DNA from: Odiellus spinosus
Lineage: Eukaryota; Arthropoda; Arachnida; Opiliones; Phalangiidae
Direction of reading: 5' to 3'
DNA length: 64,000 nucleotides
NCBI GenBank assembly: GCA_963920705.1
Contig: CAWUCO010000289.1
Location: 806,001 to 870,000, forward strand
The translations under genes were made by a program, and so were the position numbers. The notes under the pieces were generated by a model that worked only from the letters and a program-made list of their open reading frames with translations, was not told where the DNA came from and did not search any database. This document shows positions 1 through 18,689 of the stretch, one piece after another. Within the stretch, counting starts at the first letter, position 1, and every line of letters begins with the position of its first letter.

Positions 1-102
1 ACTAGTTACTTATATTCTAACTTTGCCCAAATTACCATATTTTAAACGGAATATCGTGACCTTCACCCATCTCAGGGATTTTCAAAACCACACCCAGATG
101 AG

Positions 103-110
103 TATATAAA
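103..110 (+). promoter_or_regulatory. TATA box of the first rightward provirus gene
   Basis: TATATAAA lies 85 bases before the ATG at 195, followed by a purine-rich stretch. Spacing suits an RNA polymerase II promoter with a leader of about 55-60 bases. It mirrors a TATA box at the other end of the element. Confidence 0.55.
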
Positions 111-194
111 GACGGGAAATTCAGGCAAACCTCACAAACGTTTCCAGCTCTCATCTCTTCAAGTCTTCACAACCTTAAAGTGATCCTGTAACTC

Positions 195-1563
195 ATGGCT
201 GCTAATTCATCATCGAATAAACGCAAGGTAACCGACTTCTTTGATTCTTTACCTGATCTCTCAGATAATTTGGATTGGAAAGATGAATTAATATCGCATA
301 TTAATACAGTTAAAGAAGGAAGTACTATTCAAAATCAAGGCGGCCTAGTTCCAAAATACGACGTCAAAGAAGACTCGGCCTCTTACTCTATAAGTTTACC
401 CGCTCAAGTCGGAGATTACTACATTGATATCCAAATTTACGACTACAACAAGATTAAGAATTTACCAGCCAATGAAATTTGGATGGCCGATGGTCGAAGA
501 CTACGTTTCTTTGCCCAAGAGAACAGCAAGGAGTGTAAACTGATAAACTCTATTGTCACCCAAATTGCTAAAGATATGAGGGAGAATTCGTATAAGTCCA
601 TCAGTCCAGCGACAAAAGGGTCAAAAAGTAAGTCAATGACTTTTCAATTTCTAACCCGGTTTACGACTTCGAAACGAATTACGGCCTTGCTCTTAAAAGT
701 AAAGTATGAACCCAACCAGTTTGGTTATAACGGCGCTGAATTCGGGCTTAATTTATGGTCAATCACGTTTATTCTTCATGTTAAAATTCAACAAAAACCT
801 CGTCAAAGCCATTTACAAAAAACATTATAATTTTTGCAAGTACTTAACTTTGTTGGAAAATTTGGAATGGATTGAAAGGTACCCTGATAATATTACAAGA
901 AGGTCCTATTATAATGGGTTCTATATATGGAAAGTTAAATGCTTCAAATCCATTACCATCAATCACCCCTGGATGGAGGAATATGACTTTTGGCGATTCT
1001 TTCCAAGCCCGAACGACGAAATGAGTCGTTTAAATACCTTATCTCTCAAACATTGGAAAGTCGAAGGATTTCCGAGTTATATTAACGGGCATTTTTTTGA
1101 GGATGAGAAATTGGTGGAATACGTTCTGCATAGTCTCAATAAACAACTTACAGAAAAATACCAATCTCTAAAAAATGAATATAACTTTAATGAACAATAT
1201 AGTAGTTATTTAGGTGACGGGTGGTGGTATGTCCTCGACAAAGATAGTAAGCGTGAAAATCTCGATGTAAGTGATCTCGAAGTAGATTTTATGTCCCAGA
1301 GTTTCAAGTTTTCCTACGACTATATGATTTTTACGAGATTCATTAAGGGATACATTTCTTGCATTTTTAATCTCTTAACTCTACAAGTTCCCGATTGCTC
1401 GCATTTATCAGGCTTTGTCTCGTATACGGAAGAAGAATCAATGAACTTTATATATGAAGTCTTGGAACAAAGAAAGAAAAGATCATTAAAAAAAGCCCCC
1501 TTACGTATATTTCGGGGTTTGTCGACTTTGGAGGTTGACATTATATTGGCCCATCGCCGTTAA
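195..1563 (+). pseudogene. Unknown first gene of the provirus, frameshifted
   Basis: I do not recognise this protein. Two open frames overlap: 195-830 (211 codons from the first ATG after the TATA box) and 706-1563 (frame +1). They most likely form one gene of about 450 codons with a one-base shift between about 700 and 790. The tail of the first frame looks non-coding in character (KIQQKPRQSHLQ), while the second frame is rich in aromatic residues through to its stop. The first part is soluble and mixed in charge; the second has several WW/FY clusters but no clear membrane segment. It is followed 38 bases later by the polymerase ATG. An early or accessory role is only a guess from its first position. 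Confidence 0.6.
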
Positions 1564-1601
1564 AAGCGAGCCGCGTTTTAACTTTCAAAACATTTCGAGT
1601 C

Positions 1602-4600
1602 ATGAGTAGCCAAGAATCGGACAGCGATCAGGATGAACAGCCCTTAGATTTAAGTTTAAAAAGTAACCCAAAACAATTTTATTCTATTGATAAAATTCTA
1701 GCTAAACACTCGCGGAAATACAAATGTCAGCAGATAGAAGGTAAAGTGCGATTCATAAATTTGGATCAAATTAAACTGACTGAAATTCACGAAACTTTTG
1801 TCAGGATTATAAACTCTTTACTGTACGAATTGTTACGGGACTACCATGGGTACAATCGAGTACGTTTCTGTATTCGCTCGGATGAATTTGATAGCCCGAT
1901 TAACCTGGCCTTTATGAACATAAATGACCTAACAGCCGAAAGAGTTATTCGAGCTATTAGTCAAGTAGCGCAATCGAACCAAAATTTTCATCTTGAGAGT
2001 TCACTAACCTTTGACGTGGTTCTATTACAATGTGAGGTCCCAGTTGGAACTCTCCAAAAAGGTTTGAATCGTCGAAATATTGTCCCTTTTGATACGTTTA
2101 TTAAAATCAATCCCAATTACATTTATCTGGAAAATGATGATCATTTATGTTTCGGCCGAGCTTTGGCTATTGGTATCTTTTTAGCCGACCTCCGGGTCGA
2201 GAAAAGAAAGAACAAAGTCTTCAAACCGAGCAAAGACCAGACGTATTACTTTAGGGAACTTAAAGAAAGTACGAAGGATTTACAGAAACAAGAAGCTCTA
2301 CGCTTATACCATAATGCCAAAATCGAACCAGGGGCTGTTAACTTGAAGAGTATCGAAAAATTCCAAAACTTTCTGCTCGACTATCAAATTGTCATTATTC
2401 GATTAGAAAATATTAATGAATTTTATTTTCGCGGTCCCTGGCGTGAAAAACAAATTTTTATGGTTATTGTAAACGATCACGTGCATATATTGAAGGATTA
2501 TCATTGTCTGAAGGGTGGCCAGTCCTATTGTCCAAAATGCTTAACTCGAAATAGTCAAATTAAAGAACACGATTGCGAGACGCGAGTGAATTGTAGTCGT
2601 TGTCGTATGTTAAACGTTTTCCACGAGGAAATTAACATTCCGTTACAGAGATGTCGCGACTGTGGGCGTTACTTTAGAGGTCCAGATTGCTTCAATTTAC
2701 ATTTAGCTAACGGCACGTGTAAAAATTTTAAACGATGTGTAAAATGCGGATTAGAATTGAAAGACAATCACGAATGTTCGAGACCCTGTAAAAATTGTCC
2801 GAGAAAACACGAAAAAAACCGTTGTTACGTCATGCCTTTGGATACCAAGTACGATAAGAGACGTTATTGTTATTTTGACACTGAGACTGTGACCAAAAAT
2901 AACGAACATGTCCCAGTTCTGTTGGTTAGCGCCATGGAAAATGAAGAAGACGGAGAATACACCTACAGTATATTTCGAGGGTTTGACTGCATTGACCAGT
3001 TTATGACGTACCTCTTCCAAACGAAAGATACCTATATTCAACACGCCACGAAACGTACGAAGAAAACTGTTCCAGTCTTTGAAGACGTCACCCTGGTATC
3101 GCATAATGGCATGAACTTTGACTCATTCTTCATTTTAAACGCCTTATTAAAAATGTCCATTACCCCTGATGTTGTCTTTAAAGGTAGCAAGCTGCTGGCC
3201 ATCTTTCTGAAACAACAGAAAATGAAATTCTTGGATTCCTTTAATTTTGTGGCTCAACCTTTAAGATCATTTCCCGCCACGTTTTCATTGGGGGAAAGCA
3301 AAAAAGAATTTTTCCCCTATATTTTTCATACTGAAGATACGTTAGATTACGTCGGACCTCTCCCTAGCAAAGACTATTTTCAACCTGAATACATGAAAGA
3401 AAAAGATTACGCCGAGTTTAGTCAGTGGTACGAAGAGAAGAAAAAGCAATCAGTCTATAATTTACGCGAAGAATTGGAGTATTACACAATCATGGATGTC
3501 AAGGTGTTACAACAAGGAATGGATACCTTTCGACGATTATTCCAGCAAGAAACCGCTTACGACGTTATGAACATGAATGCTTTGACCATTGCCGGGGCTT
3601 GTACTAACATATTTCTGCACAAGTACCTGGAAGAATTTAGTTTAGGCGTTGTTCCGGCAAACGGATATGGAAACAATATCAATCAAAGTCAAGCCGCATT
3701 AAAGTGGTTGGCCTGGGAAGCTGAGCAACGTAACATCGACATACAAACCACCCTATCGTTGGGAGGTGAAAAGAAAATTGGTCGTTTTCCGGTTGACGGG
3801 GATTTTTTTCACGGATGCCCGCTTCATACAAAGGGTAGCCAGTGGAATCCTTTGTTAGAAGATTCTTTCAAAAACCTGTACGAAAGAACTTTAGATCGGG
3901 ATGACGCCATCAAAGCCGACGCCCCCAATGCCGAATACGTCCGAATCTGGAGCTGCGAATGGGAAGAGATGTTGAAGACTAACCATGAGTTAAAAACATT
4001 CTGCAAATCTTTATCTTTTCGCGAACCAATTGGTCCGAAATCCGCTTTATACGGCGGTCGGACGGAAGGTCTCGTTTTGTATCGAAAGGCTCAACCGGAT
4101 GAGAAGATCTTATTCTACGATATAATGAGTCTTTACCCCTTTGTCTGTAAGTACCGTGACTATCCAAAGTTACACCCGGAAGTAATTAAAAAACATTTTA
4201 ATTACGAAACAAATTTTTATTTTGGATTAATGTCTTGCAAGATTTTGGCACCAAAAAACGCCTATATACCAGCCTTACCTTTTCGAACAAGGGGTAAACT
4301 TTTCTTTGCCTTATGTAAGACATGCGTGGAAAACGATTTTGAGTCTTGCACCCTCAGTGATCAAGAAAGGGCTTTCGACGGCTGCTGGACGAGTGTTGAA
4401 ATATACAATGCCGTGGAATTTGGATACGTCATAATGTAAATTTTCGAAGTTCATCACTACGTTGAAAGCTACCGCTACGTTAAAGGGGAGGATCCAGGTT
4501 TCTTTGGAGGGTACATCAATACCTTTTTGAAGCTGAAAATTCAAAATTCGGGATGGCCGAGAGATGTGAAAACGGAAGCCGAAAAATCGGAATATTTGAA

Positions 4601-5386
4601 GGCGATCAAGGAGAGGGAAGACATTGATATTAAAGCTGAGGATGTGACGTGCAACACCCCTCTCCGAACTCTTGCTAAGCTAGCACTGAACTGTAATTGG
4701 GGACGTCCCTGCATGTCCCACGACAAGCCCAAGAGGTCTTTGTCAAAACCTACGAAGCCTACATATCCATTGTCACAGACCCGACTATCGAACTGACCGA
4801 TATGCGACCTTTCAATGACGAAGTTTGTATGTTGTCTTACAAGTTCAAGAAAGATTTTTGTCCGACGTACTACAAAGGCTCGCCAGTGGTTGGTTGCTTC
4901 GTTAGCTCCTATGGCCGCATTGTCTTGTTTCAAACTTTGCAACAGTTGGGCACCAGGATTTTATATTATGACACGGATAGTGTATTTTTTGTCCGAAAGA
5001 ACAATGACGAAACAAATTTTCCACCCCTCGGTCAATTTATGGGAGACTGGACCGACGAAGTTCCGGGTACTTATATCACTGAATTTGTGTGTTCAGGACC
5101 CAAATCGTATAGCTACAAAACAGCCGACGGTAAAAGCGTCACGAAAATGAAAGGCATTTCCCTCAATCGAAAAAATGAAGAAATCATCAATTTTGATTCG
5201 ATAAAAGCGGCCTTGGACAAACCAGAAACCACGTACTCGGTGGAGGTCCCCTTTAACGTGGTGCGCAACAAGAGTCAGGCGAAGCTTTTTCTGGGTAATT
5301 TAAAGAAGACTTTTGGTGTTACCTTTAATAAAAGAATTATCAAAGATGATTACTCGACAGTGCCCTTTGGATATTCGAACGAATAA
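1602..5386 (+). pseudogene. polB: Protein-primed family B DNA polymerase (broken)
   Basis: Would replicate the linear element using a protein primer. An N-terminal domain carries DDHLCFGRALAIG (about residue 180), then a Cys-rich zinc region (residues about 306-406). The 3'-5' exonuclease follows with FDTET (about 423), SHNGMNFDSF (about 500) and YTIMDVKVL (about 628). An endonuclease-like insert with VDGDFFHGCP and IWSCEWEEML (about 730-790), typical of Polinton polymerases, comes before GGRTEG and motif A FYDIMSLYP (about 838). TAA at 4437-4439 interrupts the frame; coding continues in the same frame to about 4720, then shifts by one base, with motif B near the shift. Motif C YYDTDS lies near 4965. 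The C-terminus ends at 5386, one base before the BIR gene. One nonsense codon and one frameshift make it inactive. Confidence 0.93.
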
Positions 5387-5387
5387 G

Positions 5388-5807
5388 ATGTATCGTGAAA
5401 GTAAAAGATTGGAGACCTTTAACAATATCAATTGGTTGACGGCCTCGAAACCTTTGCCACGCCACTCGTATCTAGCTTCGGAACTAGCTGAAGCGGGTTT
5501 TTTCTACTTGAACGTAGGTTGTAAGACTAGATGTTTCTGTTGTCACATTGAATTTGACTGGAGCGAAAGCAGTAGCGATGAATATCCACTGAACGTACAT
5601 CAAAGAGAAACCCCGTTTTGCGCCTTTTTACTCGATCAGGATAAAACTAATTTGAAAGCGTACGAAGAAACCCATCAAGAAAAATTGGCCAAGGAAGCTG
5701 TGGAAAAACTGACCATTTTGATGAAAAACAAACATATTTTGAGGTTTGTGGAAGCATTACGCGAGGTGGTATTAGATGGATTTGGAAAAGAGTATAAAAA
5801 AAGGTGA
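5388..5807 (+). CDS. BIR-domain (inhibitor-of-apoptosis-like) protein
   Basis: An intact 139-codon frame whose ATG starts one base after the polymerase stop codon. Residues about 7-81 form one BIR domain: an RLETF start, a W16 region, AGFFY (36-40), then zinc ligands C49, C52, H71 and C78. The C-x2-C and H-x6-C spacings are standard; the loop between C52 and H71 is two residues longer than the usual 16. No RING finger follows; the tail is Lys/Glu-rich and helical. BIR proteins bind caspases or IAP antagonists, so a role in blocking host cell death is likely but inferred. BIR is not a core Polinton gene, so this is probably captured host or viral cargo. It is one of the few undamaged genes here. 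The same frame is open upstream to 5313 inside polB, but the ATG at 5388 fits the domain start. Confidence 0.88.
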   Translation: MYRESKRLETFNNINWLTASKPLPRHSYLASELAEAGFFYLNVGCKTRCFCCHIEFDWSESSSDEYPLNVHQRETPFCAFLLDQDKTNLKAYEETHQEKLAKEAVEKLTILMKNKHILRFVEALREVVLDGFGKEYKKR

Positions 5808-5925
5808 CATTTGACGAGATAACAGTTATTTGGTATATCTCTGTCGAGGATCGGACCAGTTGGAATTTTGTTAATCATTTCCGTTTTAAAAAGAGAATTA
5901 AAGATTTTGAGCTTAAATTTCAAAA

Positions 5926-6579
5926 ATGTCGTGTCGAATCAAATTTCAAGCCCCAATGCAGCTGTTGGTGAGTGGTCCAACCATGTGTGGTAAAACCACC
6001 TGGATATTTAACCTTTTAAAAAACGCCGAGACTTTAATTGAACCTCCACCCAATAGGATCGTGTACTGTTATAAAGAGTACCAATCAAAATTTAAAGACA
6101 TGCAGAAAGAAATAAGAAATTTAGAGTTTATTGAGGGATTGCCCCCAGAAGATCCCAATTTTTGGGATGAAAATTTGCATAATTTTTTAATTATTGATGA
6201 CTTGGCCTTTACCTGCTATAATAACGCCCACATTGCTAATATCTATTGTGTTTCCTCGCACCATAAAAATGTGTCAGTGGCTTTGTTAACTCAAAATCTA
6301 TTTGGGCAAGGAAAAGAAAGCCGAACAATTAGCCTTAATTCCTCGTATATCATATGTTTCAAAAATCCTCGCGATGGAAGTCAAATAAACTACTTGAGTA
6401 GAAAAATATTTCCCCATAACAAAAATCTCGTGGCCAAAGCTTTTCATCTAGTGACGGCTGCTAATCCATTTTCTTACTTGTGTATAGATTTAAAACAAAA
6501 TATGCCTGACGAGTCACGTTTAAGAAGTAACCTATTCCCTCACGAAGGTAATATGATCATTGTTTGCAATGTCAAATAA
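5926..6579 (+). CDS. FtsK/HerA-type genome-packaging ATPase
   Basis: An intact 217-codon frame. Walker A is GPTMCGKTT (residues about 18-26), Walker B is FLIIDD (about 87-92), and LLTQNLF is the usual glutamine-containing sensor strand. The NPRD segment near residue 145 is a likely arginine-finger region. In Polintons and related viruses this enzyme pumps DNA into the capsid. The length matches the family. It sits 118 bases after the BIR gene, and that gap holds no reading frame of note. AATAAA follows the stop codon at about 6596, a possible poly(A) signal. Confidence 0.93.
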   Translation: MSCRIKFQAPMQLLVSGPTMCGKTTWIFNLLKNAETLIEPPPNRIVYCYKEYQSKFKDMQKEIRNLEFIEGLPPEDPNFWDENLHNFLIIDDLAFTCYNNAHIANIYCVSSHHKNVSVALLTQNLFGQGKESRTISLNSSYIICFKNPRDGSQINYLSRKIFPHNKNLVAKAFHLVTAANPFSYLCIDLKQNMPDESRLRSNLFPHEGNMIIVCNVK

Positions 6580-6632
6580 ATAAACTTGTTTCTTCAATAA
6601 AAGTGTTATTACAGATCTTGACTTTAAAATAA

Positions 6633-7097
6633 CATGTTTTGAAAACGTACCTCAAGACGTTTGCGGAGCAAGCGAAAACCAATATCATTACTGAAGTTTT
6701 ATTACGGAACGCACAGAGGGCCTTACGGACCCAAAATAGATTTACCAGACAACGGCATCCCCTGAAGAAACACTTGCCTTTCTTATGAAGGTTGGTCAAC
6801 GTTAGTCAAAAAGGAGGTGGAAAACTAGAGCAGTTTTTGAAAAGAGCCAAGGCCCCTCAAATTAAATCAATCAACAAAACGTTTTTTAACTTGTTACGCG
6901 GTAACATTGAGATACCTGAGGAAGCCCGGTTGTACCTAAGACAGCACCGAGGTCTTGTCCGTCAATTAGGCAGTAAACGGGGGACCACCAAAACGAATCG
7001 GAAATTGTATATAAAACAAGCTGGAGGTCTGTTGCCCGGTTTAATCGGTGCTCTGGTACCGACCCTGATTTCAACCATTTCTTCTCTGGTACGATGA
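6633..7097 (+). pseudogene. pX-like basic/hydrophobic small virion protein, interrupted
   Basis: The part from about 6792 to 7097 is open and matches the arthropod Polinton pX-type protein in layout: a basic middle with LLRGNIEI and RQHRGLVRQL, then a hydrophobic tail AGGLLPGLIGALVP. In adenovirus-like systems such proteins act in core packing or membrane disruption; that role is inferred here. The same frame is open upstream from 6633 with plausible coding content (LLRNAQRALRTQNR), but TGA at 6786-6788 separates the halves and no ATG starts the upstream part. Its stop codon overlaps the next ATG as ATGA at 7094-7097. Confidence 0.68.
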
Positions 7098-7788
7098 AGC
7101 GAATGGTTTTGTTACCAGAAACGGCTCTTTCCTCGGAAACGGGTAAAGAAGCCTTAGCTCTTGATCGTGAAATAAAGAGGATTTTGAAAATGAACATGTC
7201 ACCCGAATACAAACTTCGACACTACAACAATTTTTGACCATGAAAAGTTTAATAGAATCCCCCTCCGTCAACGTGCAGAACTTTCCAACCAGTCTGACGG
7301 CACCAATATCAACACCAGCGCCACCATTGACCGGACCGACGCAAATTACACCTACACCGAGCTGGTTTCCATGTTTTACAACTTCTCCCGCCTTAGCGTT
7401 GTCGTCAACTGGTACGTCTACACCGCTTGCTACTATATCACGGACTCCTACCCCTCCACCTCAGATATCAGCCGGAGCATCAAGCAGTCAGACCCAGCGT
7501 TTGTCACAAGCGATATCGAATCTGTTGACTTCGCAAGCGGCGTCCTCTTTACCTGCGCTACAAGTTGCTCACCTGCCTCCGAAGCGTAGCGCGAGCAGCG
7601 TGGCCAAAAAACTATTGGCGAAAAATCGAGAAGAGAAACGAGAGCATCAAAGGTACGCCCGTCGTACGCTTACTTTGAAAGATGCTACTGATATTGCCGA
7701 TGATGAGGATGTGCCACCCCGAATGACTATGAGAAAAAATCCCAAAAAGACTAAACAATCGGGTAAAGGAACATTACTTTGGGAGTAA
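7094..7788 (+). pseudogene. Ser/Thr/Pro-rich provirus protein, frameshifted
   Basis: A 47-codon frame starts at the ATG at 7094 (MKRMVLLPETALSS) and stops at 7235. A second frame runs from about 7234 to 7788. The N-terminal piece resembles the conserved start of a Polinton structural gene, which usually continues with helical LYNQ/LQ-type sequence; the second frame takes that up just past the break. A one-base shift near 7215-7230 is the simplest explanation. The middle is low-complexity Ser/Thr/Pro (residues about 20-100 of the second frame). The C-terminus is basic and charged (KNREEKREHQRYARR). Function unknown. Confidence 0.6.
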
Positions 7789-7794
7789 TTGACA

Positions 7795-8247
7795 ATGATT
7801 TATTCTATCGCGAAAAAGTTTGCTAAACTGGTTTTATGCATAGTAATAATTTTGATCATTACGTTTTGGTTAATTTTATTTTTACCCATTTTGTTACTTT
7901 GCCTTTTATATACCAAGTTTAAGCATAGGAATTCAATCTGTTGCGAATGTCCCGGATTAGTCCGTCTTTATTTTCACGATTCGCAGTTTCGTCGAGCATA
8001 TTTTTTTATTTGGTGTAATTCTTTACACTTTATTATTTTTCTTGTAAAAGCCCTATTATCATTTAATCTTAAAAAAGTAAAAATGCTGTATTATTCAGCT
8101 TTGTTTGTCTTAACTTCTGTTTTAGGCGCTGGTTACGGTGGTTTTTGTAATTATTGTCATAAACGTATAAAAAGTAATAAAATGTTTTTTATTCAAGACA
8201 AGATTGATTATTATGATTCCATAAATGTATATGCATATTTAACATAA
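7795..8247 (+). CDS. Small membrane protein of the provirus, unknown function
   Basis: A 150-codon frame starting at the ATG at 7795, six bases after the previous stop. Residues about 12-40 are a long run of Leu/Ile/Val/Phe, enough for one or two membrane spans. A cysteine pair follows (ICCEC), then a second hydrophobic stretch around residues 65-85, a third near residues 96-115, and CNYCHK. I do not recognise the family. Its last 59 bases overlap the end of the convergent protease gene. The small membrane protein at the opposite end (13591-13920) is similar in character but not clearly homologous. Confidence 0.6.
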   Translation: MIYSIAKKFAKLVLCIVIILIITFWLILFLPILLLCLLYTKFKHRNSICCECPGLVRLYFHDSQFRRAYFFIWCNSLHFIIFLVKALLSFNLKKVKMLYYSALFVLTSVLGAGYGGFCNYCHKRIKSNKMFFIQDKIDYYDSINVYAYLT

Positions 8248-8668
8248 TTATAGCGTCGTTGCACGTTTTGTCATTCTTGTTGTACATATCTTGAAGGATA
8301 TCTTCGAAAGAAATTCCGGAGCACAGGTTTGTCAGAACAAAAATGACGTGTCCGCCGCAGGAGAAAGATTTGGTTGGCTGCAGTTGTGTAAGATTGTGTT
8401 TCCAGTTTGAGGTGTATCTCGACAAATCTAATCCGTAAAAATCCGGTTCTTTCCCGTAAGAACAAAATAAAATGCCGTCATCATTTTTATCTACGTAGAC
8501 GCCCATCCAATGCAATCCACTTTCAGTCGAAGGTTGCGAGTTGATGACGAAACAAAAGGGTGTAAAATCTGGTTTCTTGGGTAGAATATCTTGAGGGTAC
8601 ACCCCGATAAAAAATGGTCTAGTACGGGGATCGCATTGCAAAAAGCGTTGTAAATCTTCGGTATTCAT
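8189..8668 (-). CDS. Adenain-like cysteine protease
   Basis: An intact 159-codon frame. GLHWMGVYV carries the catalytic histidine, and KSFSCGGHVIFVL carries the catalytic cysteine with a helix after it, as in adenovirus-type maturation proteases of the Ulp1/C48-C5 fold. Between them, where the family normally has an acidic residue just before a SYG/FG turn, this copy reads LFCSYG. The acidic member of the triad therefore appears replaced by cysteine. The ATG overlaps the integrase stop codon as ATGA (8668-8665). The role is cleavage of capsid precursors. The open frame suggests recent function, but the substitution may have disabled it. Confidence 0.85.
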   Translation of the reverse strand: MNTEDLQRFLQCDPRTRPFFIGVYPQDILPKKPDFTPFCFVINSQPSTESGLHWMGVYVDKNDDGILFCSYGKEPDFYGLDLSRYTSNWKHNLTQLQPTKSFSCGGHVIFVLTNLCSGISFEDILQDMYNKNDKTCNDAIIMLNMHIHLWNHNNQSCLE

Positions 8669-9616
8669 AATTCGATTTTTTGAAGCTCGGGTGCGTAAAA
8701 GCTACCCTTAATTATTTCAACATTTTCGTCTTGTATGACGTAAGCGGGCGGATCTCGAAATAAGACTTTTTTAATAACAAAAATTTCCGTTGTCCAGTAC
8801 CCAGTATAACCTTTAGCAAAAACCCTTTTATCAGCCGCTATTCTAACCAAATCACCGACTCGTAACTTTGGGACTTTTCTTTTTACGCTTCTATTCATGT
8901 ATAATCTTTTCCAGACAAGATGTTCGTTATTTATAGTAACATTTTTGGGTGACATCCCAATGGTTGAATGGACAGTTTGATTGTAACCATCAACCAATTT
9001 TTGTAAATGTTTCGAGTAATTATAATCCTGGTTCTTGGTCATAAGTCAAAACATTCGGCTTTTTAAAGTTCTATTCGAACGTTCTATGATACCACATTTT
9101 ATATTACCATAACTAGCGTACCAGAGGATCCCTTTTCGTTTTAAATAAGTTTGAACTTCTTTATTAATAAATTCGGTACCCGCGTCTGTATTAAACTTTA
9201 AAGGAGTTCTTCTCGAAAAATTGATTCGAGAGCCGGAATAATTTCGTTAGCTGTTTTTTTCATGAGTGGTTTAGCCCAAGCGTAGCGCGATAGCACATCA
9301 ATAACCGTTAAAATATATCGATATCTATTGTTGAATTTGGCCAACTGGGGTAGATCTACCAGATCCGCTTGGAATATTTCGTCTTTAGTATTAACAAAAG
9401 TTTTATTTCTCGGAAACCTTTTTCTTCGATTTCTATGTTTTGTATAGGCTGGTTGAGACCTTGACCAGGTGATGACGTCTCGAGTCTTAACACGAGGGAG
9501 AGCTGATTGCAGTTTTTTTAACGACCCTAAACTAGCGGGGTGTTGCGGATCGTAATATATCCGGGCCAGATCTTGAGCTACGCGTTTCGCGACCATAGTA
9601 TGTGTAATAATGACAT
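8665..9616 (-). pseudogene. Polinton integrase (rve superfamily), broken
   Basis: Retrovirus-type integrase that would insert the element. The likely start is the ATG at 9596. The N-terminal part has YYDPQHPASLG, the usual Polinton lead-in. The first catalytic Asp is in QADLVDL (about 9360), the second in FNTDAGTEF (about 9185) and the Glu in IIERSN (about 9083). A frameshift near 9200-9215 separates the first Asp from the second, and a TGA at 9048-9046 stands where the family has tryptophan. The C-terminal chromodomain-like part (KVPKLRVGDLVRI) is open from 9042 to 8665. These two lesions inactivate the gene. Confidence 0.9.
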
Positions 9617-9652
9617 CAAACAATCAAATAGGTTATTTTATATCTTTTATTT

Positions 9653-10526
9653 TTATCCAACACAATCGCAAAAAACATGGTTTTTCAAGTCTACAATATC
9701 ATTAATTATTTCCATATACCATTCTTCAAAGTTGTCGGATCCGTATTTTCCAAGAAACTCAAACCTGATATCTTCCCGGTTTAAAGCTTGAACGGCCTCG
9801 ATCAAATCTTTCTCACGTCTTTTGTCATATTCTAGACTTCTGTTGTAAGGATAAGGAAATTCCTGGGCTAACTTCCCAGCCTTTTCTTCGAAGAGATAAT
9901 GTCCAATTTTGTCGACAATCAGATCTTTCAAACCATTCTTTCTCGTTATTTGAGTTTGAATTTGACGTTCTTCATCCAGTTCCGGTTTCAGCTGTTTCAG
10001 TCTGAGCCAAGTATCTTTTCTAAAGGTAAATCCGTTCAATGTAGCAAACCAGGAGTCGCAGAATTTTGTGTCATCGGGAGTATATTGACGAATATCAATA
10101 AACTTCATTCCGCTTCCCGAAATATGCCCTTCGAGTTGAAAGTTCTCCACTAATCGAGTATGAAAGCGTGGTAACACGTCTTCGAAGAAATCGTTAACAA
10201 CGTCTCTTAAGCTCCAGATATTTTCACAGACCGAGAATTGAAGATGAACAACGGATTTGGCGTCATTCCGACGAATAAAGAAATTTTCGCCAGAAGCGCT
10301 TATTCCAATCGTTTGTTTGTCGGAGAGAAAATATTCTTGCGGCATGATAACGCGAGATCCGCCATCGATATGATTCAAAAAGTTCTTTTTAAACTTCTTT
10401 TAAGGCTTTTTTCATCTCTTGGAAATTCCAACAGGATCGAATAAATCCGACTTCTCTAAGATTGTTTCGAACTGTCACCACCAGGTTTAGTTCCTTTCGT
10501 TGAGAAAAGAAAACGTACTCGTCCAT
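9653..10526 (-). pseudogene. Unknown provirus gene between capsid and integrase
   Basis: The main frame (10378-9653, 241 codons) has no ATG at its start. Just upstream, an ATG at 10526 opens a 45-codon frame (MDEYVFFSQRKELNLVV) that stops near 10391, close to a run of A's. One gene of about 285 codons with a single shift is likely. That start lies 5 bases after the inferred end of the major capsid gene, matching the tight packing elsewhere. The protein is charged, soluble and has no membrane segment. NHIDGGSRVIMPQEYFLSD and FQLEGHISGSGMKF look like conserved segments, but I cannot name a family. Its place in the capsid operon suggests a virion or assembly role. Confidence 0.6.
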
Positions 10527-10530
10527 CCTC

Positions 10531-11844
10531 TTACTCTAACTTGTAAAGAATGGTTCGATCTTTCGTTATCAACATTTGGTTCTCAAACTCGCCGTAGACG
10601 ATAACTGTGACATTGTTAAGCGTAAACTACCGTGTTTTTCCAAAGAAAAATGTTCGCCACTACCTCCCTCTTCTGCTGTTAAATCCAACGCCAGTAAACA
10701 ATTGCCCTGGGGGTATTCCTCGTACGAGATATCATTACCTTTATTTTTACCGTAAAAATCTAAAGCCGTGAACAGGGATTGGTATTCGCGACAATAGCGT
10801 TTTTCAGCAAAATTTGGTTGAAAAGGTTGATCGGGATAATTTTTATTTCCGACCGTAACGGCTAAATACGTGAAATCCAAGTGCTCGAAATTAAAAGGAT
10901 TTTCAGTTAAATCTCCGTTGAAGGCTGATGTCTTTACGAAAGCAATTATAATTCTATTTGGGATTCTACCCAAGAAGACATTTTCTTTCGTCGTGTCAGT
11001 ATTACCTCTTTCTATCCCAAAGTACTTTGCCACAGTCTGATTAATCGGGTAGACGCAGGGTGTTTTTTCCAAAACCATGGCGTGGGCTAACATTAAGTCT
11101 GGGTTTAACTTAATTTTCCTAACGTAGAGCGAAGCATCGCTGATGACGAATCTATATTGAGTGGCAGCTGGGGGCAGCGCGGGCGGGGCTGGAAGTGGTT
11201 CTCGCGATATAATGGGAAACGACATTCCTGATCTAATAAATTTAAATTTTACATCTACATTGTTTAAGAGGAATTTATTCATTTTACAAATATCCAGATG
11301 GAGTTTCCCTATCATTTCACATACTTGAGATGGATCAACGCGCTGTTTTCTCAGTTTCATTCCTTGATTAGACGCGTCAAAAATATCCTCGGGTTTTATC
11401 TTGGTATCTTTGTAAAACATTTCCAAAGCTATTTGCGTCTCTTTGGCATCTTTCCCGTAATTTAACAATGTTTCGAAATAAGCGATATACGGAGCTAAAT
11501 TATTAACGGTTTGTACTAGCGTATCATTTAACATTGCTTCTATTTGAGAAAATAAAGCCCATAAGAGTAAATTCACAGGTCCAACTGTGTCTACCGCCGC
11601 CGTCATATCTTCCCAAGCATTATTCGTCGTGTTTTTTTTTTAATAATTTAACGTTAAGCTTTAATCTGGTTTTTGATAAATCGACATAGTGTTCCGGAGT
11701 ACCGGGGACGAAAAATTCGATTGGTCCTCCATCCGTAATTGAATTGACGGGTTTTAATTCAATATCATTACTAGCCAAAATATTATAATTACTAACAGGT
11801 TTGACGAACAAGTCGGCTTCAGACATCATACCTTCAGACCCCAT
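10531..11844 (-). pseudogene. Double-jelly-roll major capsid protein, frameshifted
   Basis: Would form the trimeric capsomer. The start ATG is at 11844. The N-terminal piece has the family hallmark SITDGGPIEFFVPG and YVDLSKTRLKL. It stops at 11620 next to a run of ten A's on the coding strand (11641-11632), where the frame shifts. The main part (11606-10569) contains PNRIIIAFVKTSAFNGDL, NPFNFEHLDFTYLAV and a C-terminal GNDISYEEYPQGNCLLALDL, all typical of the second jelly roll. A second shift near 10610-10640 replaces the true C-terminus; the conserved ending continues in another frame to a stop at 10531. About 430 residues in all, somewhat short for the family. Confidence 0.9.
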
Positions 11845-11905
11845 CTTGTCGCGTTAGATAACTACAACTAAAGCCGATGCCGGCAAGATCCGGCTATTTA
11901 TATCC

Positions 11906-12289
11906 CTAGGATAAAAAATCGGTTTTCTTTCTTCGTTTTACTTTACGACCCTTTAGACTTTTTCTTTTACGTTTACCAGTGCCGTATTGCGAATTGAGAA
12001 CTTTGTCACCAGCTGTGTGTAATAGATTAGATCCAGCAATTTTAATATTCCTTTTTAAAGCTGATTTTGGATCTTGCCCCGCTGAAATATCACCGATCCA
12101 GCGACTTCCAACACCAATCGCTTCCCGACCTAAGGCCTTGGCCGCTGGCTTTATAATTGGGGTAATGAATAGAACTAGACTCTTAAAAATTGAACCTAAC
12201 CCGTTACCTCGTTGAAAAACGGGACCTCGGAAGCCTCCTCCTCCAGCTTGCTGCAGGTAATAGTAATAATACCTATTTCGCGACGCCAT
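11906..12289 (-). CDS. Small basic core-like virion protein
   Basis: An intact 127-codon frame starting 5 bases after the minor capsid stop. The N-terminus is Tyr-rich then Gly-rich (QQAGGGGFRGPVFQRGNG), as in many Polinton and adenovirus small core or cement proteins. The middle is helical and Ala-rich (PIIKPAAKALGREAIG). The C-terminus is strongly basic (GTGKRKRKSLKGRKVKRRKK), suited to DNA binding or nuclear import. It lies between the two capsid genes, where Polintons usually carry such a protein. A DNA-condensing or capsid-lining role is inferred. Confidence 0.72.
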   Translation of the reverse strand: MASRNRYYYYYLQQAGGGGFRGPVFQRGNGLGSIFKSLVLFITPIIKPAAKALGREAIGVGSRWIGDISAGQDPKSALKRNIKIAGSNLLHTAGDKVLNSQYGTGKRKRKSLKGRKVKRRKKTDFLS

Positions 12290-12294
12290 TTTTT

Positions 12295-13545
12295 TTACCT
12301 TCGTCTAAAATGTAATGTGGTCACTGTTTTCCCGAGTTTGAAAGGAATTTTACTGCCCGAATCAGTGGCAATTTCTATATCAACCACGTTAAAATTCGGT
12401 GTTCTGACGGGGTAATAATTAATCGGGTTAAACGTTAACTCGTAGGGGGTATTATACTTATTGTTCTCTGGTCTGGGTATTGTACGTAATAGACCTCCCC
12501 AAGCGTCACCTATAACCTGAGGGTATATGAGACTGGTATAAACGAATAAACCCTGGACACCTCTATTTATATCAGCGATATGTTCACCATGGCTCTTGTG
12601 CGTTAACCCTTTCTCAATTTGTTTGGTATCAAAACCCAGCATAAGACCTAAACCAGGATTGGATTTGGGAAAGCGAATGGTAAAACTGTCTCGCAAATTT
12701 TTTTGTTGATCCGTGAGAAGATAATCGGGTTTTGCTTCATCAATTAACCCTAGACCACAAAGTAGCGTTACCGTCCCATTGTTATTTTGCTCAAAATCAA
12801 AATAAGGCCTCATTCTCGGGGATAAACAGTCTCTCATTCCTTTTAACACCTTCTCTATAGTTTCGTACGTACCGTGTGGTTTGATATAAAAGATTTTCGA
12901 CTCGTTCGTTACTCGTTAATTTTATGGTCTTGTCTCTTTTGAAAATCTGCCGAACATAAAAAGGGGGATATTTGGAGGTGTCGAGTTTGATCCTGTTCTG
13001 GTCTAAAGCTCGTGTTCCAACAATGGTTGTCCCCGTTATCCATTTTTCACAATCCCGCGCTTCTAAACCTAATAATTCGCAATACATTCTGGGAAATTTA
13101 ACGAAGGTTTCACCATTGGGATCTTTAAATTCAATAAGAAAACGTTCCTGACCGTTGACGATCCCGATTTGAAATTCTAACTTGTCTTTTACTTGTTGTT
13201 GAGTAATAGACGCCTGCATCTGATTAATAATTTTATGATAAATATTTCATTCGTATTTTTAATTATTGTACTTTTATCGTTTACGGTTCCCTGACCCGTT
13301 TCGTATTTTAAATCTAAATCAACCATTCTAACGACTAAAGTATCGAAAAAGTCGGTAATATTATCCCATTTCGAAGGCATACTAATGCCCGATAAACCGA
13401 CTTCCCAATGTCCTTCAGATAAATCAAATGACGTGGGTAATTGCGTCGTGTAACTGGTTTTTGTGTTTTTTGGGTATTGAGTCATGGAGGCGTTACTCGG
13501 GAGAGTCAAGTCGAACGTATCGTAGATGGGAGCGAGCATCGTCAA
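12295..13545 (-). pseudogene. Minor capsid (penton-type) protein in three frames
   Basis: Three overlapping frames run in order: 13545-13189, 13219-12797 and 12849-12295. The first has FDLTLPSNASMTQYP and GHWEVGLSGISMP, the usual start of the Polinton minor capsid protein. The third has FVYTSLIYPQVIGDAWGG, then PFKLGKTVTTLHF at the C-terminus, the standard ending. The middle frame carries the linking part (FVKFPRMYCELLGL). Two frameshifts, near 13190-13220 and 12800-12850, explain the split. In this virus lineage the protein forms the capsid vertices. The core-protein ATG follows immediately. Confidence 0.85.
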
Positions 13546-13590
13546 ACAGAGTTGAAGGATAACAATGACGATGAAACAAGCTGGTCAGAC

Positions 13591-13920
13591 TTATTTATCC
13601 TTCCTTTTGAGAGGAATTAACCCGTCGCACCAGCGGCATATATGGTTTAAAGGTTTCAACTCGTAGATCTCCCAATAATACGGTAAAATAAAGATTAGCC
13701 CGAGAATATCGTACCATGGGGCCAGAACGAATCGGGAATTTCGAGTAATAATTGAACGAATAAGACCAATGGGGACCGTGATCGGAGTCAAGAGGACTCT
13801 AAGCCAGTATTTACAATGGCGAAGAGTGTAAGAATCGTGAAAAAACCAACGCTTCCAGATACAGCATTGGCATTTCTGTAATTGAACGCGAGCACTTTCC
13901 CTCGTTACCCGTAAATCCAT
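13591..13920 (-). CDS. Small Cys-rich membrane protein, first leftward gene
   Basis: A 109-codon frame at the right end of the provirus. It has a Cys cluster (CQCCIW, residues about 18-23), two hydrophobic segments (LLTPITVPIGLI, about 43-54; ILGLIFILPYYW, about 71-82) and a C-terminal HICRWC pair. I do not recognise it. Two TATA-like sites lie upstream on the same strand. A site on virion or host membranes is inferred from composition only. Confidence 0.5.
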   Translation of the reverse strand: MDLRVTRESARVQLQKCQCCIWKRWFFHDSYTLRHCKYWLRVLLTPITVPIGLIRSIITRNSRFVLAPWYDILGLIFILPYYWEIYELKPLNHICRWCDGLIPLKRKDK

Positions 13921-14021
13921 TTTAAGCTGACTTTAGGATCGAGTCTTTTATATGATATCCTTCTCCCCTAGTGAGTGAATGAGTCATTGGCCCCCCCAGT
14001 CTTTTTGGCTATAGAATCCCC

Positions 14022-14029
14022 CTTTTATA
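14022..14029 (-). promoter_or_regulatory. TATA box for the leftward provirus genes
   Basis: TATAAAAG on the minus strand, about 100 bases before the ATG at 13920, similar in spacing to the TATA box at 103-110. A second TATAAAAG at 13952-13945 lies only 24 bases from that ATG, so it would start transcription at or inside the gene. Confidence 0.45.
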
Positions 14030-14099
14030 TCCGGAATCATGCAGAAAAATAAAGGAGCAGGGAGGGAAAAAATAAAAAATAAAGGAGCAGGGACGTAAA

Positions 14100-14430
14100 A
14101 ATGAAAAATTGTTTCAGTCCTCCTTGAAAATGGGTTTTTCGACCGGGGGTTAGGCCGGGTCAGACTGGCGGGGTTAATTAGGCCAATTTATGGACGGATG
14201 AGGTCATTTGTTGACGGATGAGCTGTTGACGGATGCGCTGTTTGTTGATTTTGGGGGCGGGGCTAATTAGGTAAATTTGTAGCCTTTGGGGGCGGGGATG
14301 ATGCGAGTATTGTTGACGGATGACGTCATTTGTTGTTTTTAGGGGCGGGGATGATGCTAATTTGTTGATTTGATGACGTCATGGGTTGTTTTGGAGGGGG
14401 GGTGGAAAGATAAGTGTTTTCCCCCTCCTA
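14100..14430. promoter_or_regulatory. Array of GC boxes and CRE sites at the right end of the provirus
   Basis: G-rich strand with GGGGCGGGG near 14252, 14288 and 14342, two perfect TGACGTCA sites (14321-14328 and 14374-14381), and repeated TTGTTGACGGATGA-like units between 14208 and 14325. These are the classic binding sites of Sp1-type and CREB/ATF-type factors. The cluster lies upstream of the leftward genes and may be an enhancer or part of the terminal repeat. Nearby, 14041-14100 holds two copies of a short AAAGGAGCAGGG unit. Confidence 0.45.
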
Positions 14431-14467
14431 GAAGTACAGGAATAAACTACTTATACACACGTTTTTA

Positions 14468-14530
14468 CAAGATGGTTAAGCGCATAGGATAGCTACACTA
14501 GGCAATGATGTAGACTGCAAAAGAAGGGGC
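14468..14530. repeat. Short dispersed repeat shared with 49046-49110
   Basis: Both sites begin CAAGATGGT, AAGC-CATAGGA, ATAGCTA with few differences. Here it immediately follows the provirus; at 49046 it follows a 94-bp duplicated block. It may mark the insertion site of the provirus or an unrelated repeat. Confidence 0.4.
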
Positions 14531-14880
14531 GCCTTATACACAGTATTATCGTAAAAACATACACCCTAAAATCTGTATAAATATTTTTCAGTCAACTTTT
14601 TCGAGTTCACAGTCACTTTTATCTCTTTTCGTGTTCACTGTCACTTTGGTTTTACGCCACTACATACTTTTCGTCATTTCCAACGGGCGCGATCCTATGG
14701 GAGGGCACGTAGCTAAACATTCTTCACCTATTTCCACGGTTGAGGCCTATATCTTTCTTCACTATGAAGTCCCGTTGCCACTTCATTCAAAAAACATCTA
14801 CCCCACCATGAAAATCAGTAACCGGTTTCAGTTGACAGTGGTAACTGAATAGATGGCTCTATGAAGAATCATATACACTA
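14531..14880. other. No gene seen
   Basis: AT-moderate sequence with a 73-codon chance frame at 14631-14852 that has no recognisable features. Confidence 0.5.
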
Positions 14881-14885
14881 ATATA

Positions 14886-15092
14886 GAAACGGATAAAAGA
14901 GCCGTTAAAAAGCACCCATTTGTATTGCTAATGTTGCCTTTTTAAAAGGTTAGTTTAAAATATAGGATTTTCTATACTTTTGCCAACCTCGAAACTAACA
15001 AAAAGAGTCGTTAAATAGAACCCCTTTCTACGACAGATGTTGCCTTTTGTCAAGGGTGGAACGTATATAGGGTTCATAGATTCAACTATTGC
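14886..15092. repeat. Diverged tandem pair, unit about 107 bp
   Basis: Two units start near 14887 and 14994. Both have an AAAAGAG-CGTTAAA block, CCC then TT, an ATGTTGCCTTTT block about 45 bases on, and a closing ATATAGG. Many mismatches show an old duplication. Confidence 0.5.
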
Positions 15093-15313
15093 GATCCTAA
15101 TGGCTCTCTGCTATGACTCCCCTTTCCAATAGCGCACTACTTACTTCTTTATGAGATTAAGCATTATGAAACCATCCCCGTTAGGTTCTCCCCTTGCGCC
15201 AGCTTAGCTTGAAAATTTATAGTTTATCACAAACACATCTCCAACTCTCCGAGGATCTAGCTCACAGTTTTGTAATATCGCCACCAATAGAGACGTTTAT
15301 CATTAGAAATAAA

Positions 15314-16255
15314 ATGCCATTTAGTCGGAAACGAAAACGTTCGAGCACCGAATTTTTTGATATAAATATATCCTACCATGAAAGTTCTGACGTTGACGAA
15401 TGTACTTCAAGCAGTGATGATGGAAATGAATGCGGTGAAAGAGAAGTTAGCGATAACGAAGGTTTCAAATTTGAAGATTCAAGCGATGAATCATTTACAA
15501 GTGAAGATGGAAGTGAGACTGGAAAATATACCTTATCGAACAATTGGAGGCAGGTCCGAAACTGTTATTCAAATGGGGATGACGTTAAGACGGCCCAAAT
15601 CATTGCAAAGGTAAATATTTTAGACTATTTTAAGATCTTAAAGCAATATAGAATGGTATAGTTGTTATTATTTCTATTATTTACTAAATTTCCAGAATCT
15701 GAGGATGAAAATCGTGATCATGGTGATAGTGATCGTGGGGTTCGTGATCTTGGAGGTATTGTTAGTGACCACGGTGATAGTGGCCGGCGTAGTAGTAGTG
15801 ATCACGGTGATAGTGGCCGCCACAGTAATAGTGATCACGGTGATAGTGATCACGGTGATAGTGATAATGGTGATAGTGATGAAGAGAGTATTAATAATGA
15901 TAATGAAAATTGTGATGATGAGCTTTTGTATTTAAATGCCCCAATCAAGGTGCAAGAAAGCGCGTTGGCAATTATATTCTTCGCCTTGCGTTATGCTCTA
16001 ACCAAGGAAGCTTTTAACTCTCTGCTTCAACTAATTAGTTTGCATAAACCCGATGAAAATCTTTTGCTGAAGTCCCTTTATTTATTTCAAAAACTATTTA
16101 AAAGTTCAATCAGGAGAAATTACAACAGGTACTGCTCAGCTTGTTTCTCATCAATGGATGGTAACAAGCTGAGCTGTACAAATTGTGGTAAAGAGTTTAA
16201 TAAAATGTACCAAGTTTTTAAGGCTAGCACCAAATATAGGATTTCCCCAATCTAG
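15314..16255 (+). CDS. Transposon-type protein fragment with one intron
   Basis: Exon 1 (15314-15610) encodes a basic start (MPFSRKRKRSS) and an acidic Ser/Asp/Glu-rich stretch. It ends at AAG before a GTAAAT donor. A 3' site TTTCCAG ends at 15695, but only the next AG at 15703 keeps the frame; this small offset may be real splicing or an indel. Exon 2 starts with DHGDS-type repeats, then a helical block (APIKVQESALAIIFFALRY; LLQLISLHKPDENLLLKS), and a four-cysteine zinc ribbon (CSACFSS and CTNCGKE). The helical block plus zinc ribbon resembles the N-terminus of a large transposon protein family found in several animals, which I cannot name with confidence. The coding sequence ends at 16255, so the catalytic part is missing. 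Confidence 0.5.
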
Positions 16256-16635
16256 GAACCAACAAATACTGCCATTAGATAGAGCCTGTTCAATCCTGGA
16301 GCCACGGTCCCTTTGTATACCAGACTAGAAAAGAACTCGTTTTCCAGAATTGTAATGGTTCAAGGTCTGAGTTTGAGTTTGAGTTTATTTCAATAAATAG
16401 ATACACAAAGATAGCTCGGGGCTAAGTCACAAAGCGACTTGTAAGCCCCGCTTAATAAGGAGTAGAATTGTAAATAAAGAAAATTTAGTAAAAATTATAT
16501 AAATATATAAATAACAAGTGCTAATCATAACGCAAGATTAACAATTTTTTTTAAAAACAGTATACGATTAGTAAATCCAGATTATTATGCATTTTGCTGT
16601 ATTGAAAGATAAAAACATGATTATGGCTAATTAGC

Positions 16636-18621
16636 CTACAATTCTTCTTCAAGAATCATTTTCCTCACCCGTTTCTTGAAACACTTAAGGGAGTTTTTTA
16701 AGTTTTGGATTTCTGCTGATAGCTTATTAAATAATATAACCCCACCGTAGTAGATGGACGTCAATTTTTTAGTGGTTTTACACAATGGTAATTTTAACAG
16801 TTCTATAGTTCTAGTACTTCTAGTTATTTCTTTTTTAGTAAATGTGTTTGTATTGTTTTTTAAATCTGTAAGTATATAACAGAGTTTATAAAATTTAAAA
16901 CATTCTTTAACATTGAGTAATTTTGCTCGTTTAAAATACTCGATGGTATGGTGTCTGGAGGGAAGGTTGAATATACTACGAACGATTCTTTTTTGGAGGG
17001 TCTGAATACGATTAATATTATTATTGGAAGTGCAACCCCAAAATTGTAAACCGTACGTCATAATTGGGTAAAAAAGAGCAAAGTAAATCTCAAATAAGAT
17101 TTTTCGCGGTATCATGTTTTTGCAATAAAACATCATTCCACAGGCTCTACAGAGAGTACTACTTATTTTAGTTATGTGGCAGTCCCATGTTAGATGCGTA
17201 TCGAACCAGATACCCAAGTATTTGTATCTATCTACCCGTTTTATCTCAATATCATTAATTTTGACTTTTTTTTTAATGCCCTCTACATTTTTGCCTCGAT
17301 TGCGAAAGAGAATATGTTCCGTTTTATTAATATTGAGCCGTAGCCCGTTAATAGATAGCCAATTGTATATTATATTCAAGTAGTTGTTAGCAGAAGTAAT
17401 GGCCGAATCAGATATAAGTGATTTACATAACAGGAGTGCATCATCGGCGTACATATATAGTAATCCCAGAGGGATTTGATTTATGAGGTCATTAATATAT
17501 AAATTGAAGAGTAGAGGGGAGATTACTGAGCCCTGTGGGACACCTGATAATAGATACTGGGCCTCGGATAATTTTTCATCAACTCTCGTAAAACATGGCC
17601 TTCTTGACAAATAACTCTTCAACCAATCCCCCGCGACTCCCCGAATTCCAAAGCGATATAGTTTACTAATAAGTCTATCATGTTCCACACTATCGAATGC
17701 CTTCCTCAAATCCAGGAACACACCCACGCATACTTGACTGGAGTCCAGCGCATCCAAGATAAATTTATACGCTCCGGATATGGCATTCATAGTGCTACGG
17801 CCGGGTCGGAACCCAAATTGATATTCAGATAAAAGGTTATTCGCTTCAGTAAATTTTTTGAGCCGATTAAAGAAAGCCTTATCAAAAATCTTGGAAACGA
17901 AGGAAAGGAGGGAGATCGGGTGATAGTTACCGGGGCACGTAATACTGCTTTTTTTAAATATGGGAATAATAACAGTGTTCTTAAGCTTATCTGGGTAAGT
18001 ACCACTTTGGAAAGATAGATTTACCAGAAATGTTAAAGGTAAGAGGAGGTACTGTATGGCGTGTTTCATAGGCCTAGAGTGAAGATTATCAAAGCCTGGA
18101 GCAGAGCTTGCAGAAATGGAGTTTGAGATTTTAAAGATCTCTTCTTCATCAATAGGAAAAAGGGCCATAGTATGACGGTTAGATTCTAAGTATATGTTGG
18201 GATCTCCCTGATCATCTAATGCTTCGTTATTTGTAAAGAAGTTATTCAAGATATTAGGTTCAATATTTATTCGCGGGGAGCTTTTCTCACTTCTGCCCAA
18301 TAACTGATTAACGATTTTCCATTTGGATTTGGGCGTATCTGTATTCATCAGGTTCTGGTAGTAGAATGAATTACGTTTATTTCTAATTAAGTTATTACAA
18401 TGATTTCTAATTTGGAAGTAATTTACTTTGTTTGTTTGAGTTGGGGATCGTTTGTATATTTTTTGGAGGTGATGTTTTTGTCGAATTAAAGTTTTGATGT
18501 GAGGACTAATGTAGGACTGAGAAGCAGTATTATTTTTTATTTTTCTAATTTCGAAGCATCTATTATATTCGGCCGTAAGCTTTTCTTCGAAATAGTTGTA
18601 AGCATGGTTTATATTAGTCAT
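16636..18621 (-). CDS. LINE reverse transcriptase (ORF2 C-terminal part)
   Basis: 661 open codons. The fingers and palm are clear: SAPGFDNLHSR (about 170-180), GNYHPISLLS, FGFRPGRSTMNAI, VFLDLRKAFDSVEHD (motif A), SGVPQGSVISPLLFNLYIND (motif B) and YMYADDALLL (motif C, coded near 17455-17441). A thumb and C-terminal region with ILFEIYFALFYPIMTYG follows. Priming and copying of element RNA at the target is the family role. The ATG used here is internal; the polyprotein originally began at 19351. Confidence 0.9.
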   Translation of the reverse strand: MTNINHAYNYFEEKLTAEYNRCFEIRKIKNNTASQSYISPHIKTLIRQKHHLQKIYKRSPTQTNKVNYFQIRNHCNNLIRNKRNSFYYQNLMNTDTPKSKWKIVNQLLGRSEKSSPRINIEPNILNNFFTNNEALDDQGDPNIYLESNRHTMALFPIDEEEIFKISNSISASSAPGFDNLHSRPMKHAIQYLLLPLTFLVNLSFQSGTYPDKLKNTVIIPIFKKSSITCPGNYHPISLLSFVSKIFDKAFFNRLKKFTEANNLLSEYQFGFRPGRSTMNAISGAYKFILDALDSSQVCVGVFLDLRKAFDSVEHDRLISKLYRFGIRGVAGDWLKSYLSRRPCFTRVDEKLSEAQYLLSGVPQGSVISPLLFNLYINDLINQIPLGLLYMYADDALLLCKSLISDSAITSANNYLNIIYNWLSINGLRLNINKTEHILFRNRGKNVEGIKKKVKINDIEIKRVDRYKYLGIWFDTHLTWDCHITKISSTLCRACGMMFYCKNMIPRKILFEIYFALFYPIMTYGLQFWGCTSNNNINRIQTLQKRIVRSIFNLPSRHHTIEYFKRAKLLNVKECFKFYKLCYILTDLKNNTNTFTKKEITRSTRTIELLKLPLCKTTKKLTSIYYGGVILFNKLSAEIQNLKNSLKCFKKRVRKMILEEEL

Positions 18622-18689
18622 TAAGAAAAGCTCTGTCCAACTTAGCTTAGAAAGATTAGCGCAGAATTTGAGGGTGTTAGATTTACTGA

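Follow-up and report, generated by a model that had tools for sequence, protein, structure and literature searches.

A RING-less single-BIR gene carried under purifying selection by a Polinton clade of Odiellus spinosus

A 64,000-nucleotide stretch of the Odiellus spinosus genome (hereafter the window, meaning the whole of the DNA analysed) contains a short BIR gene inside a decayed Polinton. The locus raises the questions of whether this gene belongs to the element or is a stray capture, whether selection has acted on the element or on the inserted copy, and what a lone BIR domain might do for a Polinton. Viral IAPs are themselves well known in insect DNA viruses; the main interest here is that a Polinton clade carries such a gene as a regular component, maintained by selection.

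The gene lies at positions 5388-5807 of the plus strand and encodes 139 amino acids plus a stop. Its assignment is supported by matches across the genome, by the BIR fold and by a PF00653 match at E = 1.8e-11 (44.9 bits against a curated Pfam cut-off of 22.9). The BIR domain spans residues 7-81 (5406-5630, plus strand) and carries CCHC zinc ligands (Cx2C...Hx6C) at C49, C52, H71 and C78, invariant in 8/8 family rows. It is followed by a C-terminal tail, residues about 90-138 (5655-5801, plus strand), in which the predicted structure model of the window protein places helices at 90-113 and 115-138 and which the family alignment also supports. PF00653 is matched by all eight Polinton BIR family members. 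Pfam found no RING in the window protein, nor was a RING among the families matched by the eight members; a DUF494 match under the cut-off (E = 0.02) was taken as chance. These data confirm what the first-pass annotation had described from the letters, namely a BIR (IAP-type) protein without a RING, encoded by a 139-codon frame that starts one base past the polymerase stop. An unrelated zinc protein is ruled out by the Pfam and fold matches. The window gene thus encodes a single-BIR, RING-less protein of the element.

On the plus strand, the element begins with an open reading frame in two frames (195-830 and 706-1563; 195-1563 overall) that has no Pfam match. PolB follows in at least two pieces. 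The first open piece (1602-4439, with a same-frame stop at 4437-4439) matches DNA_pol_B_2 at E = 3.7e-35, the protein-primed type of polymerase expected of a Polinton/Maverick. The C-terminal piece (4802-5386, plus strand) lies in another frame, ends one base before the BIR ATG and has no Pfam match of its own; it is assigned from the PolB sequence found upstream of BIR in other loci. Past the BIR gene, an open, putative A32/FtsK-like packaging ATPase (5926-6579, plus strand) has the P-loop GPTMCGKTTW, and its Pfam matches are all below cut-off (Pox_A32, 0.0036; Adeno_IVa2, 0.015). On the minus strand, the open frame at 8189-8668 is a candidate adenain-type cysteine protease; it has no Pfam match and a weak PDB match to the ASFV protease S273R (E = 0.4). 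A broken integrase-like gene (8665-9596, minus strand) consists of pieces at 8665-9042 and 9198-9596, the second with an rve match below cut-off (E = 0.011); a PDB match was not found. The remaining minus-strand frames in 9653-13539 (9653-10345, 10569-11606, 11906-12289, 12295-12837, 12797-13219 and 13189-13539) are putative capsid genes, judging by the usual Polinton gene order. Several look broken, none has a Pfam match above cut-off, and one has no meaningful PDB match. Terminal inverted repeats were found neither in window positions 1-20000 nor when the 2 kb left of the window were used, and comparison of 1-1500 with 11000-20000 gave one 21-base chance match only.

The rest of the window holds other features. 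To the right of the Polinton, a 661-aa reverse transcriptase frame (16636-18621, minus strand; RVT_1 E = 1.1e-43) is probably a non-LTR retrotransposon. A Helitron at 50961-57010 (minus strand) comprises Rep-like and helicase frames (Helitron_like_N E = 1.5e-27, PIF1, UvrD_C_2); where the helicase frame ends there is a further match, endonuclease-like but under the cut-off. A short tandem repeat of the MFKRRLFRRCSKDV type keeps three overlapping frames open at 26839-27456 (minus strand). A frame at 60717-61454 (minus strand) is weakly similar to DDE_Tnp_4 (E = 3.2e-5, just below cut-off), and two frames at 37397-39126 (minus strand) look by eye like insect-type chemoreceptors and have no Pfam match at E<=0.01.

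We searched the home genome (443 Mb, 286 contigs) with the BIR protein and found at least 150 matches (150 scored among 273 candidates), a count that further duplicate pairs like the one described below may inflate. A first cluster comprises 69 matches at 91-96% identity to the window protein, and a second comprises 52 at 39-45%, of which 45 have no stop inside the frame. Another 25 matches at 74-90% are partial or broken, a few being pieces of one copy, and single matches stand at 64% (locus L065) and 54%.

The neighbours of these matches are mostly constant. When the ATPase was used as the query (716 candidates, 150 scored), a listed BIR match lay within 1000 bases upstream on the same strand at 118 of the 150 ATPase places, most commonly at a distance of 124 bases (48/118). 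As for the remaining 32 places, BIR sequence, open or decayed, was present in 9/9 sampled slots. PolB sequence precedes BIR in 83 of 84 loci (the exception is L048), and ATPase sequence follows it in 70 of the 72 long loci (exceptions L038 and L062), the other 12 of the 84 being too short to reach the ATPase side. At the PolB-BIR junction, 60/69 first-cluster loci have TAAGATG, in which a single base separates the stop from the start. With 74 of 84 loci left unparsed by the script for PolB-stop/BIR-start distances, the PolB stop was placed 11-26 bases past the BIR start in nine loci and one base before it in one first-cluster locus. The copy number and the fixed position between PolB and the ATPase indicate that the gene is not a stray capture, and its proposed membership of a Polinton is thereby borne out. 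One adintovirus-like Polinton clade of this genome carries it as a regular accessory gene.

The window BIR gene also has an identical twin on contig C9. The element and its flanks are present twice, at G000:C9:1096500-1117600 and G000:C280:804000-825165, and are essentially identical in the four pieces compared: 100% over 2001, 1501 and 1936 bases, with one mismatch in 3417 bases around BIR. Because the identity in these pieces runs on past both ends of the element, the C9 copy is ruled out as an independent insertion and belongs to a duplicated stretch, either through recent segmental duplication or because the assembly left a haplotype uncollapsed.

We used the many natural copies to examine selection during spread and decay after insertion separately. 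The variant test used first-cluster copies without indels, 49 of the 67 that span BIR. Variants present in one copy comprised 65 replacement, 10 stop and 25 silent changes, where the transition bias observed would give about 3.5 non-silent changes per silent one under neutrality. Variants present in five or more copies comprised 2 replacement and 6 silent changes, a significant difference from the single-copy class (Fisher P = 0.0067), although it rests on eight common variants among copies that are related, in some cases duplicates, and thus non-independent. Variants in two to four copies, duplicates included, were intermediate (18 replacement plus 2 stop to 15 silent). The same pattern was found in the ATPase (rare variants 81+3 : 31, common variants 2 : 8; P = 0.0014) and in the PolB piece (21+4 : 16 against 1 : 8; P = 0.009). 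Within the second cluster, dN/dS was 0.063-0.266 in 16 pairs with dS of 0.5-1.1, the pairs not being independent; between the clusters dS is saturated, so no ratio is given. Common variants are thus mostly silent and rare ones neutral-like, which indicates that constraint acted on the replicating element and that inserted copies drift near-neutrally. As regards the element, the earlier proposal that the BIR gene is under selection therefore holds: dN/dS is well under one where measurable, whereas a value near one had been named as evidence against it.

The proposal had gone further, holding that the inserted copy may still be selected because it is open amid broken neighbours. This part is not supported. 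Among 55 compared copies, the changes private to the window copy and its twin are 5 replacement and 0 silent; the chance of no silent change in five under neutrality is about 0.26 by our arithmetic, so these changes fit neutrality and give no sign of constraint. The rare variants across copies, including the ten stops, likewise look neutral. The loci were picked by BIR similarity, which favours intact BIR copies; among them BIR is intact in 34/66 spanning copies and the longer ATPase in 31/52, which gives BIR about double the loss rate (1.60 against 0.79 losses per kb). The PolB count (20/53 intact, 1.67 losses per kb) is unreliable since the window's own broken piece served as the reference. 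By our count from the frames, some eight breaks are spread over about 11.4 kb of the element's coding sequence, a density at which a 420-base gene stays open by chance with probability 0.74. Other frames of the element are open too, and openness alone is therefore no sign of selection. Selection on the window copy is rejected on the private changes, the variant test and the loss rates, and we read the copy as a decaying fossil of the element's gene.

Comparison of the clusters indicates that the BIR protein diverges faster than its neighbours. BIR identity between the window and 12 second-cluster loci is 41-44%, whereas the PolB piece is 77% and 68% identical, and the ATPase 71% and 72%, to those of the loci L083 and L084. 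One further locus, L065 (G000:C2:30784859-30789272), has a mosaic appearance. In 120-base windows its identity to L083 is 93-100% throughout PolB as far as the BIR start, 57-67% across BIR, and about 75-93% in and after the ATPase. Its BIR is 64-66% identical to the first cluster against 45-47% to the second, whereas its ATPase is 92% identical to L083 against 74-75% to the first cluster. At the DNA level L065 is an even 72-74% identical to the first cluster in all three pieces, so the second cluster's BIR may be the odd member. This pattern suggests either that the BIR slot was exchanged or that recombination ended between PolB and BIR and BIR then evolved fast, though it is found at one locus of 72 compared, where an assembly error is possible. 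A second candidate mosaic, L069, proved to be an ordinary first-cluster copy with frame breaks.

What the protein resembles bears on what it might do. In an eight-row alignment of the lineages, the four zinc ligands, A34, A36-G37-F38 and Y40-L41-N42 are invariant, as are L108, L111, N114, I117, L118 and D130 in the tail. Cellular BIR proteins for comparison, 190 in all, came from two profile searches, the first started from vertebrate NAIP fragments and the second from a mixture of BIR fragments (the best 120 of 291 matches, and 73 matches); because of these seeds and a length limit, the sample is biased to vertebrates and short proteins. The Polinton BIR profile matches all 190 and reaches tail position 115 in two, weakly. 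Within this sample none clearly shares the helical tail, which therefore appears specific to the Polinton family. The best pairwise match among the 190 is P0145, a RING-bearing IAP, with 45% identity over residues 3-82. The best single-domain match of the family profile is XIAP BIR1 (49.2 bits), followed by the best single NAIP domain (37.8) and mouse survivin (33.6); the window protein alone likewise prefers XIAP BIR1 (E = 1.3e-6) to survivin (E = 0.004). XIAP BIR1 is matched in the PDB as 2pop, a structure solved with the adaptor TAB1.

A quick 94-row tree of 70 columns, with 86 representative cellular domains (of 212 usable and 217 found) and 8 Polinton rows, recovers the Polinton BIRs as one clade (SH-aLRT 97) and gives that clade no settled place among cellular BIRs. 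A grouping with unrelated zinc proteins had been named as the outcome that would count against a BIR identity, and the tree does not give it, but its rows are BIR domains only and the Pfam and fold matches are the stronger evidence on this point. A fold search of BFVD returned 23 viral proteins at E<=0.001, 21 of them named IAPs or apoptosis inhibitors; all 23 come from viruses of arthropods or molluscs and are 19-32% identical. A search of a protein collection with BIR alone gave 14 candidates, none at E<=0.001. IMG/VR, queried with BIR, PolB and two BIR alignments, yielded no confirmed relative, and neither did phages. The gene is therefore not tied to a known infectious virus.

We favour, with a probability of roughly 0.6, the reading that the element encodes a single-BIR, RING-less accessory protein of one Polinton clade that would tie up a host protein of death or immune signalling, serving as a decoy or blocking an adaptor. 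During replication of the element or infection, the BIR face would bind such a host protein, and the helical tail might dimerise or dock the BIR protein. The host cell would be kept alive, allowing the element to replicate and spread. With no RING, the protein would act by occupancy rather than by ubiquitylation. A decoy or adaptor block is favoured over direct caspase inhibition by the match to XIAP BIR1, with its TAB1 complex, and by a hint from the groove. BIRs that bind caspases or antagonists (type II, IBM-binding) are marked by a Gly after the zinc knuckle and a Trp three residues past the zinc His. Neither marker occurs in any of the 77 parsed Polinton copies (7 of 84 unparsed): CxxC is followed by H or R, and the third position past the zinc His holds E, L, Q, I, V or K. 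Among 204 parsed cellular BIRs (13 of 217 unparsed), W is present in 51, G in 129 and both in 33; since 153 of the 204 lack the Trp as well, its absence in the Polinton protein is weak evidence and serves as a hint only.

The alternatives differ in what the protein would bind and for whom. Baculovirus and insect IAPs bind caspases or IAP antagonists through the BIR groove, and a protein of the element blocking apoptosis directly by the same binding of IBM peptides would fit its nearest BFVD folds, which are viral IAPs of arthropod and mollusc viruses, and the RING-bearing P0145 as best pairwise match. We nevertheless judge this unlikely given that both groove markers are missing from every parsed copy, an argument tempered by the absence of these residues from many cellular BIRs too. 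Still less likely is a part in replication or packaging, in which BIR would be a zinc-binding partner of PolB or the ATPase. Its tight place between the two, the TAAGATG junction and the nine loci where the PolB stop overlaps the BIR start speak for this. Core replication partners are, however, expected to co-evolve, whereas BIR diverges much faster than its neighbours, and L065 combines a sharply different BIR with a PolB about 99% identical to that of L083.

A survivin-like protein, acting on mitosis or chromatin instead of death, would share the layout of one BIR and a long helical tail in 139 aa. Against survivin the family profile does extend from position 10 to 108 (1m4m, E = 4e-7) and from 25 to 113 (1f3h, E = 3.4e-6), deeper into the tail than in the XIAP rows. 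In Foldseek, human survivin superposes over 136-143 columns at rmsd 7.6-8.6, and mouse survivin over 113 columns at 5.3. With superpositions this loose any likeness of the tails is tentative, and survivin ranks below XIAP BIR1 and NAIP with the family profile and far below XIAP BIR1 with the window protein, so we hold this reading to be quite improbable. Least probable by a wide measure is a host-domesticated gene kept by selection at the window site. The open frame inside a broken element invites it; the private changes are all replacements, the frame would often be open by chance, the loss rate per kb is higher for BIR than for the ATPase, and the only identical copy is part of a duplication that takes in the flanks as well.

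The preferred role remains that of a decoy or adaptor block, and a bolder version of it is conceivable, though we would bet against it: Polintons of Odiellus spinosus may keep a dedicated counter-defence slot between PolB and ATPase, filled by a fast-evolving, exchangeable BIR cassette that acts as a RING-less decoy of host death or immune adaptors and not as a caspase inhibitor. If so, selection on such "transposons" would, as in viruses, favour getting through the responses of the host cell, with this module swapped between lineages, and, a step further, some dispersed one-exon BIR "host" genes in animals may be Polinton genes. Whether animal Polintons are transposons or viruses is a standing question. 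A BIR gene that plausibly targets host death or immune machinery and is kept by purifying selection across diverged lineages of one genome is what would be expected of an element surviving in cells that it could kill or be killed by.

Among the matches listed in the literature searched, passages of PMC11071296, PMC8363768, PMC4061559, PMC6431247, PMC10675110, PMC11071308, PMC8905726, PMC5803895 and PMC7831173 included, no Polinton was described as carrying a BIR gene. Anti-apoptotic homologues and/or candidate oncogenes have been noted as apparently present in most adintoviruses associated with mammals (PMC11071296), and bidnavirus NS3-like proteins have been suggested to be a separate family of apoptosis inhibitors (PMC4061559). 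A survey of Spodoptera cells that found Mavericks used a query set without viral proteins that have close cellular homologues, including apoptosis inhibitors (PMC5803895); filtering of this kind is one way in which BIR genes in Mavericks could go unnoticed.

Compared with known systems, the window element has PolB and putative integrase-, ATPase- and protease-like genes, as do Adintoviridae and Polintons (Mavericks). Its BIR protein shares its fold, and its occurrence in DNA elements of arthropods, with viral IAPs (baculovirus IAPs, entomopoxvirus, iridovirus 193R and nudivirus IAP), but it differs from them in having only one BIR domain, in lacking a RING, in the helical tail peculiar to its family, and in being borne by a Polinton. 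The BIRs of XIAP (BIR1) and NAIP are its best sequence and structure matches, and XIAP BIR1 also shares the CFSCH-type zinc knuckle and the absent groove Trp, although both are cellular multi-domain proteins. Survivin/BIRC5 is likewise short, with one BIR and a long C-terminal helix, but scores lower and superposes loosely over its whole length (rmsd 5.3-8.6). The Burro giant retroelements of planarians are also mobile elements with a BIR domain in an ORF; theirs sits in an LTR retrotransposon polyprotein of 4,873 aa, unlike the separate Polinton gene (PMC6431247). The single-BIR IAP genes of the hard clam are also dispersed, one-exon, BIR-only and present in many copies. In one IAP clade 42/49 genes are intronless and single-BIR and were read as retrocopies, and that text explains them by retroposition with no mention of Polintons, Mavericks or viruses (PMC7831173). 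About 31-35 Mb of the hard clam genome is annotated as Maverick in another report (PMC8905726). A Polinton origin may be a candidate rival to retroposition for reported bursts of one-exon BIR genes such as these.
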